Under the pieces are notes generated by a model. It did no database searches, was not told the origin of the DNA, and saw only the letters and a list, made by a program, of their open reading frames with translations. A DNA stretch of 45,120 nucleotides from a virus, in IMG/VR virus record IMGVR_UViG_3300035162_004390, positions 1 to 45,120 of that record; one strand, written 5' to 3'. The position numbers and the translations under genes are program-made. Of the stretch, positions 2 to 7,262 are shown piece after piece; within the stretch, counting starts at the first letter, position 1; each line of letters opens with the position of its first letter.

Positions 2-3000
2 TACAGCTACCAGTACGGCGACACCGGCCGCAGCGGCACGCAAACGGCCATGTTCGGTGAGACCGGCGAGCTGGCGACGCAACGCGCCAAGCGCGGCCCG
101 CGCACGAAGCGCCGTGAGAAGCCATCGAAGCAGATCGGCATGTTTGAGGCCATGACGGCGACGGCGCTTGATAGCGCAAGGCCCTCAGCCCCCGCACCGG
201 CCCCCATCCCCAAGATCACAGTCGCACCGCGCACACTGGCGCAGTACCCCCAAGCATTGAAGCGCGGAACGCTCGTTACAGTTGACGGCGTGCGACGCAA
301 GGTGACGTCGTCAAGTAGCAGGCCGGTAAGCGACGGCAGATCGTTCGGATTCGACGCAGACAACGGGTGGGATCTAACCTACACGGCGCGCACGTTGACC
401 CCCGACGAGGCCGCAGCGGACACCGAGAAAACCAACGCTGAAAGGGCGTTGGCGGAAAAAATCGAGGCGAAAGAAGCTGACGACGCACGGGCCAATAAGC
501 AGAGAGGCCACAACGCGGACACTGCGATCCGAGGACTGGGCGTCATTGAGGAGATCGGGCACGGCGGCAACGTGCCGGGCGAGCGTGGTCAAACGATGAG
601 CTGGACCGAGAGCGACGGCTACGTGGCATACACGCAGACCCCCGTGAAGATGGCCGCGGGGCGCAAGGCGTTCATTCGCACGAAAAAAGCGGGCGGGAGC
701 AACTGGGGTAGCGTATCGCTACATGCGGACCCGCTCACCTTAGAGGAGCTACGGGAGAAAGTAGCGCCCGGCAGGCCGCGCCTCCGAATCGTAAAAGGCT
801 CGTTTAGTTCCATGCTTATGGACATATTCAAGGGCGTGGGCCACAAGTACACGCGCCGCGAGGGCACACCCGGCAACTACCGCTACTACTACGGTGATTC
901 CGCAGCGATGCGGAGCGCCAAGACTGGCGACGAGATCAAGCTAGGCGAGCACACGGTGAAGATCGTGGGCCGCGATGCCGAGGGCATGACCGTCAAGGTC
1001 GATGGCCTACCGGCCCGGCGCATCGGCCACGATGAGTGGCAGGAGAAGCTCCGCCGCACGTACCGCGACAAATACTACCAGCAAGCCGATCGCCGCGCGC
1101 GAACGTGGGCCAACGCCGTTGCGAGGCATGTGCCGGCTGGCCTACTGGCGGAGCTGGCCGAGACCCCGCCTGAGCAGCGCCTAGCGCAACTGCAAGAACG
1201 CTATCCAAAGGTCTGGGCGCGGATGCAGCGGGCCGTGAAGCAATCCGGGCTGAATGAAGCCGACGCAAAACGGATGCTCGACTACACCATGCGTCGCCGC
1301 GGATGGTCCGAAGACGCGCGGCGCTCGCTACTGGGCGCGGCGCTGACCAAACAAGGCGCTTGGGTGCTGGCCAACTATCGCACGGTCGGCAACGCGGCCG
1401 AGCGACTGGCGGCCGACGACGGCGGCACACCGCACGTCGGCGATATGACCGCCAGCGGTGAGACGATCACCCGCGTCAACAAAGACGGCAGCAAGGCGAT
1501 GGTCGGCAAGAGCTGGAAGGCCGTCGCAGACATTCGCGCGTTCCGCGTGGAGCCTCGCCACATCGGCGCGGCCGTGGAGTTGATTAAGCCCACGTCCAGC
1601 TCCAACGTCATCGTTGGCGATCTCTTGGAGCGCAGCAAGGCCGAAGTCGCCGCGTTGAAGTCTGCCGAGGGCACCCCCGACAAGCTGCTAACCACGGCGC
1701 TCGCCGCTGACGCGCTGCACAAGATCGAGCTGCTGGCCCAAATGCAGCCCGAGCTACTTAACAACCCGGCGATCAAGGCGGCGCTCGATGCGCTGGCCGC
1801 GGTCAACGGCAAGGCCCCCGCGCACACCCCGAAGGCTCGCGGCAATAACATGCCGTTCTACATCGCCGGCAAGGGCGGCAAGCCGGTGGCCATCCCCGGC
1901 CATTACGAGCTGGTCGAAGCCGGTGACGCCATCGCCAGCCACAACCCTCTAGGCCAGTTCACGCCGAATAAGGCGTATCCCGAGGGGCTACAAGAGCGCA
2001 TGTACCATCAGGACAAGACCCTGAGCGACGGCGTCATGAACAATGCCAACCGTCTGGAGCCCGGATTCTTAATCAACACCAACGTCGATGCGACCAACGG
2101 CCCGCCCATGGTGGACGCGCGCGGTATCGTGCTGGGCGGTAACTCGCGCACCATGACGATGCAGGTTGTCTACGATAAGGGCGGCGAACACGCGGCCAAG
2201 TACCGCGACTATCTGACCGCTGGCGCGGAGAGCTTCGGCCTCAACGCGGCAGACGTCGCGGCCATGAAGCAACCGCTGCTAGTGCGCCGGCTGGACACCG
2301 AAGGCCACGACGCACACAAGCTGGTGCGCCAGATGAACGAATCGTTCACTAAGAGCCAGTCACCCGGCGCGATGAAGGTGGCGATGAGCCGCCGGCTAAC
2401 TGACGGCACGCTGAAACAACTGGTCGATAACATGGAAGCCGGCCAGACACTCAACGCCTACCTAACCGGCTCCGACGCCAAGAGCTTTGTTAGCGGCCTA
2501 CGCGACGACGGCATTATCGACGAGCGCAACGAAAATCACTACGTGAGCACGCGCAGCGGGACGCACGGCAACCTCAACGGCGAGGGTCGCGCGCTTGTCT
2601 CCGGGCTGCTAGTCGGCAAGCTGGTAGGCAACGCGGACACCATGAGCGATCTCCGACCGAGCATCGTAGACGCTGTGGCGGCGAGCGCGCCCGCGATCAT
2701 GCAGATGCACGCATTTGGCACGAAAAAAGGCTACGATATTCAACGGGCCTTGCGGGCTGCGCTCGACGGATACAACAACATGGACGCCCAAGGGCAGGTT
2801 GGCAAAACCACCGACTACAAGGGCGAAAAAGGCCAGACGGCGTTGAAGCTGGCCAAGAGTCGCGGCCTCCCGCGTGACTTGTTCCAGGGCGAGCATGCCG
2901 TGACCACCCTGCCGATCGCAGACGCGATTCTCGACGTGCTGCTAACCCGGCCCGGTATCAAGCAAATGCCTGCTATCTTCCGCATCGCGGCGGCGAAGGT

Positions 3001-3172
3001 GCAAGCTGCGGCTACTGGTAGTGATATGTTCAACCAACGCAGCGTGGCCGAGGCGATCAAAATCTCTGTTGCCGAAGGCAAGAGCAAGACGAAAGAGCCA
3101 GAGACCACCGACGTTGAAAAGGGCAGCTTTTCTGGCATGCTGACGGCCATCTTTCGGAGGCGCGCAGCATGA
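2..3172 (+). CDS. Large multidomain head-associated protein with ddrB-like ParB domain (5' partial)
   Basis: The reading frame is open to the left edge, so the true start lies outside the window; numbering here is from the first in-window ATG (base 50, 1040 residues). Residues about 615-740 match the ddrB-ParB superfamily domain found in phage polyvalent proteins: a YELVEAGD start, ASHN, YPEGLQER, and an NGPPMVDARGIVLGGNSRT core. Residues 250-330 carry a GHKYTRREGTPGNYRYYYGD stretch of the kind seen in phage head/portal-fused proteins. A short motif occurs twice, KGSFSSMLMDIF near 249 and KGSFSGMLTAIF at the extreme C-terminus. Such proteins are thought to be carried in the capsid and delivered with DNA; that role is inferred here from family and position (just before head genes). 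It ends with an ATGA overlap with the next gene. Confidence 0.7.
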   Translation, partial: YSYQYGDTGRSGTQTAMFGETGELATQRAKRGPRTKRREKPSKQIGMFEAMTATALDSARPSAPAPAPIPKITVAPRTLAQYPQALKRGTLVTVDGVRRKVTSSSSRPVSDGRSFGFDADNGWDLTYTARTLTPDEAAADTEKTNAERALAEKIEAKEADDARANKQRGHNADTAIRGLGVIEEIGHGGNVPGERGQTMSWTESDGYVAYTQTPVKMAAGRKAFIRTKKAGGSNWGSVSLHADPLTLEELREKVAPGRPRLRIVKGSFSSMLMDIFKGVGHKYTRREGTPGNYRYYYGDSAAMRSAKTGDEIKLGEHTVKIVGRDAEGMTVKVDGLPARRIGHDEWQEKLRRTYRDKYYQQADRRARTWANAVARHVPAGLLAELAETPPEQRLAQLQERYPKVWARMQRAVKQSGLNEADAKRMLDYTMRRRGWSEDARRSLLGAALTKQGAWVLANYRTVGNAAERLAADDGGTPHVGDMTASGETITRVNKDGSKAMVGKSWKAVADIRAFRVEPRHIGAAVELIKPTSSSNVIVGDLLERSKAEVAALKSAEGTPDKLLTTALAADALHKIELLAQMQPELLNNPAIKAALDALAAVNGKAPAHTPKARGNNMPFYIAGKGGKPVAIPGHYELVEAGDAIASHNPLGQFTPNKAYPEGLQERMYHQDKTLSDGVMNNANRLEPGFLINTNVDATNGPPMVDARGIVLGGNSRTMTMQVVYDKGGEHAAKYRDYLTAGAESFGLNAADVAAMKQPLLVRRLDTEGHDAHKLVRQMNESFTKSQSPGAMKVAMSRRLTDGTLKQLVDNMEAGQTLNAYLTGSDAKSFVSGLRDDGIIDERNENHYVSTRSGTHGNLNGEGRALVSGLLVGKLVGNADTMSDLRPSIVDAVAASAPAIMQMHAFGTKKGYDIQRALRAALDGYNNMDAQGQVGKTTDYKGEKGQTALKLAKSRGLPRDLFQGEHAVTTLPIADAILDVLLTRPGIKQMPAIFRIAAAKVQAAATGSDMFNQRSVAEAIKISVAEGKSKTKEPETTDVEKGSFSGMLTAIFRRRAA

Positions 3173-3390
3173 AAGTTATCATCGAAGAGTCCTACCCCGG
3201 CGAGCTGGACCTCCCTACCAGCGAGCTGCAAGAGAAGCTGCACAAGGCGCTGGCCGTCGCCACCGATGGCCGCCGCGGCGGTGAGGTGGACGTGATCGGG
3301 GAGCTGGCCACGCTGACGGTCGATAGCTACAATGCGCGCATGAACCTCATGACGGCCGACGTCGCCAAGCTGCTAGAGCCCGATGCGTGA
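3169..3390 (+). CDS. Small hypothetical protein in head operon
   Basis: This 73-residue acidic protein starts in an ATGA overlap with the large head-associated gene and overlaps the following minor head gene by 8 bases, so it is translationally coupled on both sides. It begins MKVIIEESYPGELDLP and has no membrane segment, cysteine cluster or motif that I recognise. Coupling and frame preservation make it likely real; its role is unknown. Its place between a DNA-associated head protein and the gpF-like minor head protein suggests a head-assembly accessory, but that is only inference. Confidence 0.6.
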   Translation: MKVIIEESYPGELDLPTSELQEKLHKALAVATDGRRGGEVDVIGELATLTVDSYNARMNLMTADVAKLLEPDA

Positions 3391-4354
3391 GGCAATCCGC
3401 CAGCTCATCGAAACGCACCACGCCGCGTTCGCCGTAGAGCTGCTGGGCGCGTCCGCATCCGGCGTCTCCGCCGATCAGATCGAGTCGATGCTAGCGGCCG
3501 GGCTGGTAGACCCCGCCAAGCTGGGCGGGTTCGTCATCCCCGGCATGGCCAACGCATGCGACCCGTTCTTATTCGCTCGCATGGTCGCGCGCCTCATGGC
3601 TGACGCAGCCCCCGACCTACGCGATTCAATGCGGTGGTGGACGCTGGAACAATGGCTACCGCATATCGACGGTGCGATCTCCGCGGCCCACGTGCAGGGC
3701 GCGCTGCCCATCGGCGCGAGCGTCACGATCCCAACCCCCAGCCCCAGCGGCGTTGAGGTGGCCAGCGCCAGTGCGGCAGAGCGAGCTGGTATCTACGCGC
3801 GCGGCTTAGGCAACGCCGCCGGTGCGGAGATCGACGCCGCGCTATCCGAAGTGTGGGAAGGTACGACCATCATCGAAGAGGTGCAGCCCCAGGTTCGCGC
3901 CGAGACGATCGAGCTGATACGCGACCGCGTCGCCGGTGGGCCTGGGCAAGACCCGCGCGCCGTCGCACGCGACCTCGCGCGCACCACCGAACGCTGGTCG
4001 CATGACTGGCAGCGCATCGCCGAGACCGAGATACAAGGGGCCTACAACGACGGCACCTTGACGGATGCCGTTGAGGCCTACGGTGCGGATGCGCTGGTAG
4101 CCCGCGTGCCAGAATCGGGCGCGTGCAAGAGCTGCCTGTCCCTGTTTCTCGACGGCGAGGGCAGGCCGATTGTGTGGCCGGTGGCCGAGCTGCTAGCCAA
4201 CGGCGTCAACGTAGGCCGGCGGCGGGCTGACTGGCGCGCGACAATATGGCCTATGCACCCGCGCTGCCGTTGCGATACGCTGACCGTGCCGCCGGGCATG
4301 TACGTGACAGAATCTGGACGGCTCCGAAAACTCAGAGGTATGGAAGATGAGTGA
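3383..4354 (+). CDS. Minor head protein, Mu gpF / SPP1 gp7-like head morphogenesis
   Basis: This 323-residue protein has the diagnostic C-terminal block of the phage head morphogenesis family. An ETEIQGAYNDG helix is followed by ESGACKSCLSLF (CxxC) and WPMHPRCRCDTLTV (HPRCRC), so the paired cysteines and His could bind metal. The family sits near the portal inside the procapsid and helps head maturation or DNA ejection. The N-terminal 200 residues are helical and alanine rich. It follows an 8-base overlap with the preceding gene and overlaps the protease gene by 8 bases, matching the usual portal - gpF - protease - capsid order. Confidence 0.85.
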   Translation: MREAIRQLIETHHAAFAVELLGASASGVSADQIESMLAAGLVDPAKLGGFVIPGMANACDPFLFARMVARLMADAAPDLRDSMRWWTLEQWLPHIDGAISAAHVQGALPIGASVTIPTPSPSGVEVASASAAERAGIYARGLGNAAGAEIDAALSEVWEGTTIIEEVQPQVRAETIELIRDRVAGGPGQDPRAVARDLARTTERWSHDWQRIAETEIQGAYNDGTLTDAVEAYGADALVARVPESGACKSCLSLFLDGEGRPIVWPVAELLANGVNVGRRRADWRATIWPMHPRCRCDTLTVPPGMYVTESGRLRKLRGMEDE

Positions 4355-5093
4355 CCTTTTTTCAATTTGGTGCGGCATGGAACCCCTTGGCAAGGCCAAG
4401 AATCCAGCCAACGGTGGCGGCGCGCAGAAAATGGTGGGCCGCGTCGGCGGCATTATCAGCACTGAGGCCCGCGATCAGCAAGGCGAGATCATCGTGCAAG
4501 AGGGTGTGGACTGGTCCTACCTGCTGGAAAAGGGCTGGCTCAACTGGGAGCACAAGGCTGGGCCTGAGAATGTGCTAGGCCACGTCGATCGCGTATTCCG
4601 CACGACACACCGCGGCGCTCCGGCCACGGGCATGGAAGGCGTTCTGTACCTGCACAAGGCGAAAGCGCGCGAGACCTATGAGACCGCCGAAGCGATGCAG
4701 AAGGCGGGCACGTCTCGCCGTATCGGTTTTAGCGTCGAAGGTGGCGTCGTGCTGCGCAGCTCACAGGATCGACGTCGCATCGAGAAATCCAAGGTGCTCA
4801 ACGTCGCGGTGACGGCGCACCCTGTCATGGCCGACGCGCGGCTACAGGTACTGGCAAAATCACTGTCTGCCGCCGGAGTGGGCTACCAGACGCCAGCTCT
4901 ACCCTACGGAAACGGCCTGTCTGTACTGACGCCGCAGTCGATTGCGGCAAGGCCGAGCAGTGCCACGTTTGGCGACATAACGAAGCGCATCACAAAATCT
5001 GAGTTGGTTTCGCGAATTCGCGTCCGATTCCCGCACCTTACAGCCAGTGAGGCCGGTCGCCTCGCGGGTGAGTGGATTAGTGCACTCGGTTGA
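4347..5093 (+). CDS. Prohead protease (HK97/XkdF-like serine protease)
   Basis: This 248-residue protein has prohead-protease hallmarks: GWLNWEHK with candidate catalytic His69, SRRIGFSVEG with candidate catalytic Ser129, and a strand ending LNVAVTAHPVM with His158. The family cleaves scaffold and capsid precursors during procapsid maturation. Start ATG 4347 overlaps the gpF-like gene end. After the protease core (to about residue 170), a tail at residues 177-208 strongly resembles residues 31-63 of the major capsid protein (shared GVGYQTP, GLS, PQSI, SSATF). This is unusual and may mark a cleavage or docking segment. The last 40 residues are basic and helical. The protease assignment is firm by motif and position; the tail's function is inferred. 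Confidence 0.85.
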   Translation: MSDLFSIWCGMEPLGKAKNPANGGGAQKMVGRVGGIISTEARDQQGEIIVQEGVDWSYLLEKGWLNWEHKAGPENVLGHVDRVFRTTHRGAPATGMEGVLYLHKAKARETYETAEAMQKAGTSRRIGFSVEGGVVLRSSQDRRRIEKSKVLNVAVTAHPVMADARLQVLAKSLSAAGVGYQTPALPYGNGLSVLTPQSIAARPSSATFGDITKRITKSELVSRIRVRFPHLTASEAGRLAGEWISALG

Positions 5094-5154
5094 CGTGCCG
5101 CCTCCCAGGCAGCACTTTTAACACCTCAAACGTGACCGCTCAGGAGAGCTGACT

Positions 5155-5781
5155 ATGAACATGCACCTTTTCGAGACCCTCATTGCCAAGGGCTTGTCCA
5201 CCGAGGACGCCACTTCTATTGCGTCTGAGCATGCTGAGGAGCCTACGGTTGACACCGACGCCCTGAGCAAGAGCTTAGACGGCCTGCGTGACACCTTCGA
5301 GAAGGGTGGTCAGGACGAGTACATCGCAGAGCTTCAGGCCAGCGTCGAAGAGTCGGCCAGCATCGTCGAAGCGGTGAGCAAGGGCGCAGACGCCGTGCTC
5401 GCCGAAGTCCGCGGCCAAAACGACGCACTCAGCAAGGCCATCCTCGCCATCGGCGAAGAGCTGCAAGCCCTCCGCGGCGGTTTCGACACCATGGCCAAGG
5501 GCGGCGACGTCCTCGCCAAGAGCATTCAGACTGCTACGAGCGCCCTAGGCGAGCCTGTGGTCAAGAGCGTGGATACCCTCACCCCGATCCCTGGCCCGCT
5601 CGACGCGGTGCTCAACGGGTTCAGCGGTGATCGCCCCGACCTGATCAACAAGGCCCTCGCGGTCATGCAGGCCGATGGCACCCCTGAGAGTCGCCAGCGC
5701 GATATGGGGCAAGCCGTGTCGCTGCTCGAAAGCGGCGCGAATCTCGGCGAAGTGGCCGCCGCTTACGGCCTCAACAACTAG
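5155..5781 (+). CDS. Putative capsid scaffold protein
   Basis: This 208-residue acidic, largely helical protein has heptad-like stretches (about residues 45-125, e.g. VEESASIVEAVSKGADAVLA). It lies exactly between the prohead protease and the major capsid protein, the normal position of a scaffold. A good ribosome site (AGGAG about 10 bases upstream) precedes ATG 5155. The N-terminal FETLIAKGLSTEDATSIASEH is helix-turn-helix-like, but I see no other DNA-binding sign. The C-terminal LLESGANLGEVAAAYGLNN is amphipathic and could contact capsid. No sequence family is recognised, so the call rests on order, coiled-coil content and length. Confidence 0.6.
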   Translation: MNMHLFETLIAKGLSTEDATSIASEHAEEPTVDTDALSKSLDGLRDTFEKGGQDEYIAELQASVEESASIVEAVSKGADAVLAEVRGQNDALSKAILAIGEELQALRGGFDTMAKGGDVLAKSIQTATSALGEPVVKSVDTLTPIPGPLDAVLNGFSGDRPDLINKALAVMQADGTPESRQRDMGQAVSLLESGANLGEVAAAYGLNN

Positions 5782-5828
5782 TCGCTTAGGCGCACCAAAC
5801 CCTGGCTCCCTGTTCTGGAGAAACCAAA

Positions 5829-7262
5829 ATGTCGATGATGCAACTGCCGCAGGCAAACTCGCTGGTCCCAGTGCAGGACCTGATCGCTCTCAACAACGTG
5901 CTCCGCAAGGCTGCCACGGGTGTTGGGTACCAGACCCCTACCGACGTGACTGCGGCCGGTGGCCTGTCCGCGCTGGTGCCTCAGTCGATTGAGGGTTCGC
6001 TTTCGAGCGCCACCTTCACGATGAAGGAGCTGGTGTTCTGGCCTGCGTTGGCGAAGACGAAGGTCGGGCAGACCGTTCACGAATTCAACGTGATCGAAGA
6101 GCACGGTATGGATCTCGACCCCTTCCTCGAAGAGGGTGGGTCAGGTGCCAATAACCGCACGACCTATTCCAGGAACCACGTCAAAGTAAAATTCCTCAGC
6201 GAAAGGCGCGAGGTTACCGATGTGGCCACAACTATCGGACTTCTTGGGCCTAATTCGTCTGCCATCGCCGAGGCCACCAACCGTGGCACCTTGCGCCTCA
6301 TGCAGAAGCTGGAGCACTCGTTGTTCCACGCTTCCGAAGCGGTCAACCCGCTGGCGTTTGACGGTGTGTTCACGCAGCTCGAAGCGGCTGGCGGCAACAA
6401 CATCACCGATATGGGCGGCGACAACGTCTCCCCCGACGTGCTCCAGTACATTCTGGGCGAGATGGGCGGAGCGCCGAAGTTCGGTCGCCCTGACTGCATC
6501 TACGTCGAGCCTCGCATCCACTCGGACCTGATTCGCCAGACCGTCGCGCACGGCCGCCACGATCAGGTCTCCAAGTCGGGCAGCGCGCTGACCTTCGGCA
6601 AGCGCGACATTATGATCTCCGGCCCCTACGGCGACGTCCCGGTCAAGTCGGCACCGTTCCTGTTCACGGCCTACGCACCGCCGACCGCGGCATCGAGCGC
6701 CGACACCGGTGTCCCGAAGATCCCCGAGATCGGCATCCAGCCGGCCGCTGGCGCGCACGCTTCGAGCAAGTTCGTCACGACCGACGCCGGTGACTACATC
6801 TACAAGATCTTGGCCATGACCAAGAAGGGCTACAGCGCCCCTCTGGAGACTGCCGTCGTTTCGGTGGTCGCTGGCGACCGCGTCACCATCGAGATCGACA
6901 AGACCTCCTACGGCCAGCTCGCAGATGCGTGGTACAAGGTCTACCGCAGCGACAAGGACTCCACTACTGAGTTTTCGCTGCTGGTCGAGATGGCCGCCAA
7001 CGCCACCGGTACAGCCGGCGCGGCGCAGATCTTCGACGCGAATGCGGTGAAGACTCGCAGCTCGAAGATCCTCTTCGCCAACCACAGCTCCGAGATCATG
7101 GAAGTCGCGCGCTTGCTCGATATGATCCGACGGCCGCTCGCCGAGGTTGCCACCTCCAAGCCGTTCTTGCTCATGCTTTTCGCCAGTCTCATGGTGAAGG
7201 TCCCTAGCAAGCTGTGGATGATGAAAAATGTGATCCCGACGCCTACCGACGTCTCGATCTAG
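5829..7262 (+). CDS. Major capsid protein with probable Ig/Fn3-like insertion
   Basis: The 477-residue protein follows the scaffold candidate and is preceded by a TGGAG ribosome site. Its layout fits an HK97-fold capsid subunit: an N-arm (1-65), an E-loop-like stretch with FLEEGGSG (about 99-106), a long spine-like helix region (IAEATNRGTLRLMQKLEHSLF, about 145-166) and a C-terminal segment. Residues about 315-403 read like a fibronectin/Ig domain (YIYKILAMTKKGYSAP, AWYKVYRSDKD, IFDAN) interrupting the C-terminal half. The N-arm at 31-63 is nearly repeated in the protease C-terminus. The capsid call rests on position, size and fold-like features rather than a recognised family signature. Confidence 0.75.
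   Translation: MSMMQLPQANSLVPVQDLIALNNVLRKAATGVGYQTPTDVTAAGGLSALVPQSIEGSLSSATFTMKELVFWPALAKTKVGQTVHEFNVIEEHGMDLDPFLEEGGSGANNRTTYSRNHVKVKFLSERREVTDVATTIGLLGPNSSAIAEATNRGTLRLMQKLEHSLFHASEAVNPLAFDGVFTQLEAAGGNNITDMGGDNVSPDVLQYILGEMGGAPKFGRPDCIYVEPRIHSDLIRQTVAHGRHDQVSKSGSALTFGKRDIMISGPYGDVPVKSAPFLFTAYAPPTAASSADTGVPKIPEIGIQPAAGAHASSKFVTTDAGDYIYKILAMTKKGYSAPLETAVVSVVAGDRVTIEIDKTSYGQLADAWYKVYRSDKDSTTEFSLLVEMAANATGTAGAAQIFDANAVKTRSSKILFANHSSEIMEVARLLDMIRRPLAEVATSKPFLLMLFASLMVKVPSKLWMMKNVIPTPTDVSI

Follow-up and report, generated by a model that had tools for sequence, protein, structure and literature searches.

A copy of the capsid N-arm in the prohead protease tail of SPO1/Twort/A511-type phages and its possible role in protease recruitment

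Prohead proteases with C-terminal extensions

Herpesvirus UL26 and lambda C/Nu3 are protease-scaffold fusions. A C-terminal extension past the catalytic domain, a self-cleaved propeptide, is also found in the head proteases T4 gp21, phiKZ gp175, and SPN3US gp245, which cut after glutamate. In SPN3US gp245, the propeptide that the enzyme cuts from its own C-terminus is 64 residues long (PMC10052503), and the role of gp21 autocleavage has been described as a major gap (PMC9026906). The capsid targeting sequences of T4, which bring proteins into the head, are N-terminal, about 10 residues long, and part of a propeptide rather than of the mature capsid sequence (PMC9026906). The number of proteases per prohead is limited, at about 60 in HK97 and about 90 in D3, and in the procapsids of 80alpha, P22, and phi29 the scaffold touches a helix of the major capsid protein (MCP) N-arm (PMC12749128).

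Here, we analyze a virus record of 45,120 bases, possibly a fragment (the whole stretch is called the window). Its prohead protease has a C-terminal extension, like gp21, gp175, and gp245, but its predicted cut motif is PhixK↓(S/A), where the arrow marks the cut, and its extension carries a segment resembling the N-arm of the major capsid protein. T4 gp21, unlike the proteases described below, bears no resemblance to gp23 or gp24, and HK97 gp4 has no arm copy of gp5, unlike the window protease. As in UL26 and C/Nu3, the extension would bring the protease into the procapsid interior, but theirs is a scaffold whereas here it is a capsid arm. The T4 capsid targeting sequences are short, bring a protein into the head, and are removed by the protease, as would hold for the segment copied here, which differs in being C-terminal and in beginning at the cut. 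No earlier description of an arm copy was found in the literature searched, mostly papers available without subscription.

The protease tail and the capsid arm in the window

The features of the locus are collected in Table 1. With its PHROG 1028 protease and PHROG 752 capsid, this is an SPO1/Twort/A511-type head module. The capsid model matches the SPO1 capsid 9vel in Foldseek (E 2.3e-30, TM 0.70-0.75), and the best matches of the protease model are herpesvirus proteases, with an E-value of 4.2e-4 but a TM of only 0.25-0.40, which is a weak likeness. Pfam S78 scores 20 bits against the protease, slightly under the cut-off of 21. Among 51 aligned proteases, D43, G63, H69, G78, S129, G132, and K171 are invariant, and H69 and S129 are the probable catalytic residues. 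The window has no protease-scaffold fusion but a separate scaffold-like gene (5155-5781), and the CampHawk gene at this position is annotated as a head scaffolding protein. Herelleviridae are defined as having genomes of 125-170 kb and Firmicutes hosts (PMC7414437); the window capsid forms a long branch beside Thermus and Pseudomonas phages.

Table 1 Coordinates of the head-module features in the window.
Feature	Position	Strand	Evidence
Prohead (head maturation) protease, 248 aa	4347..5093	+	PHROG 1028, E 2.9e-33; Foldseek top matches are herpesvirus proteases
Protease catalytic domain, residues ~29-170, conserved His69 and Ser129	4431..4856	+	Invariant columns; pLDDT 90-98 over most of it
Predicted self-cleavage site K171/S172 (VLAK↓S)	4857..4862	+	Invariant K171; fit to PhixK↓[SA]; A511 mature capsid start
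Copy of capsid mature N-arm, protease residues 172-208	4860..4970	+	tblastn, alignment, shuffles, BLASTP; pLDDT ~47
C-terminal helical mini-domain, protease residues ~205-248	4959..5090	+	Three helices, pLDDT 74-85; aligned in relatives
Probable scaffolding protein, 208 aa, 8 PhixK[SAG] sites	5155..5781	+	Between protease and capsid; annotation of CampHawk counterpart
Major capsid protein, HK97 fold, 477 aa	5829..7262	+	PHROG 752, E 8.7e-47; Foldseek SPO1 capsid 9vel
Predicted capsid propeptide, residues 1-27, uncopied in protease	5829..5909	+	Near-background identity upstream of the lysine in relatives
Capsid mature N-arm, residues 28-63, the copied segment	5910..6017	+	Alignments; pLDDT <50 at residues 25-56

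Our re-alignment of protease residues 177-208 with capsid residues 31-63 has 20 identical positions among 33 columns and a single gap, in agreement with the first-pass annotation. BLASTP yields an E-value of 2e-7, and the local score of 92 compares with a maximum of 62 among 5000 shuffles of capsid residues 1-130. A tblastn search of the capsid on its own genome finds only the capsid itself and positions 4863-4973 (57% identity, E 1.6e-5). The match starts slightly further upstream than first delimited, at a PhixK↓(S/A) site shared by both proteins, which reads VLAK↓SLSAAGVGYQTP in the protease and VLRK↓AATGVGYQTP in the capsid.

This start is sharply defined across relatives. When the alignments are anchored on the lysine, tail and arm are identical at a rate of about 0.1 on the upstream side, with 0.24 at positions -2 and -3, and of 0.3-0.97 at +1 to +25; the identity fades beyond about +30. 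The A511 record annotates the mature capsid as starting at residue 24, directly after the lysine (ALK↓SFTTGYG), and the 812-type PDB chain 9row starts just past the lysine, since its length (439 residues) and alignment offset place it at residues 25-463 of a precursor of 463 residues. Since both starts fall at the start of the copy, the copied part is the mature arm and not the propeptide. The predicted cut at K171↓S172 leaves 77 protease residues downstream.

In the AlphaFold2 model of the protease, computed as a single chain, the arm copy has a pLDDT of ~47 and is flanked by a confident catalytic domain and a three-helix C-terminal domain. Residues 25-56 of the capsid model also have a pLDDT below 50 and lie outside the folded core. 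These low values fit a segment that would fold on a partner only, although low confidence is no proof of it.

The mini-domain (4959-5090) is conserved after the arm copy and does not resemble the scaffold. A second mimicry, of the scaffold by the protease C-terminal domain, was rejected, as the last 50 residues of the proteases showed likeness to their own scaffold in just 2 of 86 cases. Near the protease N-terminus, K16↓A17 (4392-4397) falls in a nearly invariant lysine column and is a possible second self-cleavage site by sequence; this candidate was not supported, since a control stretch contains the motif frequently as well. Gene 1 of the window (50-3172), which has a ddrB-ParB domain, contains the repeat KGSFSSMLMDIF and KGSFSGMLTAIF at positions 797 and 3122. 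Both occur at PhixK↓G sites, which may be cleaved by the protease and are followed by the repeated motif.

Spread through the family and co-evolution

When the segments were aligned across relatives, the copy proved to be family-wide, a spread that the first-pass annotation had not anticipated. It beat all 200 shuffles in 85 of 86 non-redundant protease-capsid pairs (a set from which L010, L061, and L114 were excluded) and in 128 of all 133 pairs, a total that includes three copies of the window. The carriers have SPO1/Twort/A511-type heads and include A511, 812, Twort, CampHawk, and Thermus and Pseudomonas phages. Each of the 12 annotated isolates first examined has a protease tail resembling its own capsid arm, and a profile built solely from capsid arms hits every whole record at exactly two places, the capsid and the protease tail. 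The window protease is missed by the arm profile and reached by its own capsid only, because both have diverged together. Conversely, a protease profile run against all PDB sequences finds three SPO1/812-type capsid sequences only, aligned at the N-arm. No copy is seen in the protease-capsid pairs of T4, HK97, and Javan400.

Scanning viral contigs for patterns from single window proteins gave no relatives; the contigs of relatives were obtained with closer sub-alignments, the broad alignments having no stretch conserved enough to search. L114 does not pass the pair test, owing to a wrongly chosen capsid frame, yet its protease tail visibly carries the copy. In L159 (SPO1L5, 2439-3199), the protease frame shifts right after the arm copy and the C-terminal domain expected there goes on in a different frame, through either a sequencing error or a real shift.

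The first-pass annotation had regarded relatives with an ordered capsid but no segment as evidence against a function of the mimicry, and such relatives exist in part. L010, L061, Chryseobacterium phage MA9V-3 (L157), and Bacteroides phage DAC19 (L158) keep the capsid and have no clear arm copy. They form one clade (support 100/99), with Bacteroidota as named hosts, nested beside the SPO1 branch. The protease is fused to a lysine-serine-rich scaffold in L061 (4468-5919) and MA9V-3 (4324-5922), whereas L010 and DAC19 have neither a clear copy nor a fusion, so that the family can assemble heads without the copy. A faint likeness to the arm, noticed by eye in the upstream 667-aa protein of L010, was rejected, since the arm profile hits only the capsid in that record. 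Provided that the two main branches are separated by the root, a loss in the Bacteroidota clade is more economical than several gains.

A swap test at 85 tree nodes asked whether tails fit the arms of their own genomes better than those of the sister clade. The outcome was positive at 67 nodes and negative at 16 (p 2e-10; p-values are approximate, as the tree is a simple average-linkage tree of the protease N-terminal part), with all 11 deepest nodes positive and no effect at the shallowest ones. Among the controls, shuffled arms gave no signal, and of two other capsid stretches only one showed a slight signal (mean 1.3, p 0.016). An earlier swap test using greedy nearest pairs was weaker (p 0.007) and is superseded by the node-wise test. 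Each tail fits its own capsid arm beyond what independent divergence allows.

Protease recruitment and alternative readings

The motif PhixK[SA] occurs 631 times in 86 scaffolds, versus 77 expected, which corresponds to an 8.2-fold enrichment with a median of 7 sites per scaffold and supports its being the cleavage motif of the protease. An arm copy was also sought in the scaffolds and rejected, as none of the 86 resembles the capsid arm. Since the scaffolds bear many cut-like sites without the arm, the latter is probably unneeded for cleavage. Of the two roles first suggested for the tail, docking and a shared cut site, both gain support from the exact boundary, the mature identity of the copied arm, and the co-evolution, but the cut site alone is insufficient.

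From these sequence comparisons, we propose, with a probability of about one in two, that the tail is a self-cleaved C-terminal propeptide docking the protease into the procapsid through the contact of the capsid arm. This propeptide would consist of three parts: the PhixK↓(S/A) cut site, the copy of the mature N-arm, and the small helical domain. Before maturation, the arm copy would fill the contact normally made by the capsid N-arm, on the scaffold or on a neighboring capsid subunit, and this contact would allow a limited number of proteases to be built into the procapsid. After assembly, the protease would cut scaffold and capsid at PhixK↓(S/A) and itself at K171↓S172, by which the catalytic domain would be freed. 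Recruitment is the best reading because the scaffold sites lack the arm, N-arm-scaffold contacts are known elsewhere, and a protease-scaffold fusion occurs in half of the copy-less clade. Nevertheless, AlphaFold2 gives the segment no confident structure in either protease or capsid, and recruitment might depend on the helical mini-domain instead of the arm copy.

Alternatively, the tail might be a tethered pseudo-substrate, the arm copy filling an exosite for the capsid arm as well as the active site. The protease would then stay a zymogen up to the point where assembly displaces the copy, upon which it would cleave itself. The copy indeed starts exactly at the cut site, with Ser or Ala at P1' on both sides, a single exosite binding both segments would also make tail and arm co-evolve, and for T4 gp21 autocleavage has been suggested as the activating step (PMC9026906). 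We nevertheless consider autoinhibition a real but less likely rival, as cleavage of armless scaffold sites would need no exosite, the protease model (one chain only) has a low-confidence tail outside the active site, and the scaffold fusion in part of the copy-less clade suits recruitment better.

It is quite improbable that the likeness reflects only an extended preference of the protease around the bond, without docking. Such a preference would agree with PhixK↓[SA] being common to protease, scaffold, and capsid and enriched in scaffolds, but the likeness extends to about +25 to +35 in the P' direction, hardly exceeds background in the P direction, and has no counterpart at the scaffold sites, which lack the extended sequence. 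The many scaffold sites without an arm copy mean that a shared cut site alone fails to explain 25-35 copied residues.

Gene conversion or a fairly recent duplication could be suspected from the strong amino-acid match and the distance of ~1 kb between the genes, yet codon identity at identical residues is 0.467 versus 0.460 expected (911/1952 versus 898.6), and there is no within-genome excess at the shallowest nodes. Within the window, 11 of 29 identical residues share their codon, versus 11.6 expected from codon usage, in agreement with the initial view that the duplication is not recent. Gene conversion was therefore rejected and has very little probability left; since the agreement of codons does not exceed the expectation from codon usage, the co-evolution is at the protein level. 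An ancient duplication persisting as a neutral relic, for which a single origin is plausible and the copy lies on both sides of the capsid tree, is the least probable of all, given the deep conservation and the co-evolution with the own arm.

Under the recruitment reading, the protease would enter the procapsid by imitating a shell subunit, a formulation we hold slightly more tentatively than the docking itself: its propeptide would be the mature N-arm, co-evolving with the capsid through most of the family's history and released by the cleavage that also serves capsid maturation. In T4, the entry of the protease into the prohead and the role of its self-cleaved tail have been named a major gap (PMC9026906), and here the sequence of the tail points to an answer, in phages (SPO1, 812, A511, and Twort) that commonly serve as models and for therapy. 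The analysis also yields a cut-site rule, PhixK↓[SA], and predicts the self-cleavage site precisely in many genomes. The arm copy might also be used as a handle to load other proteins into SPO1/812/A511-type heads.
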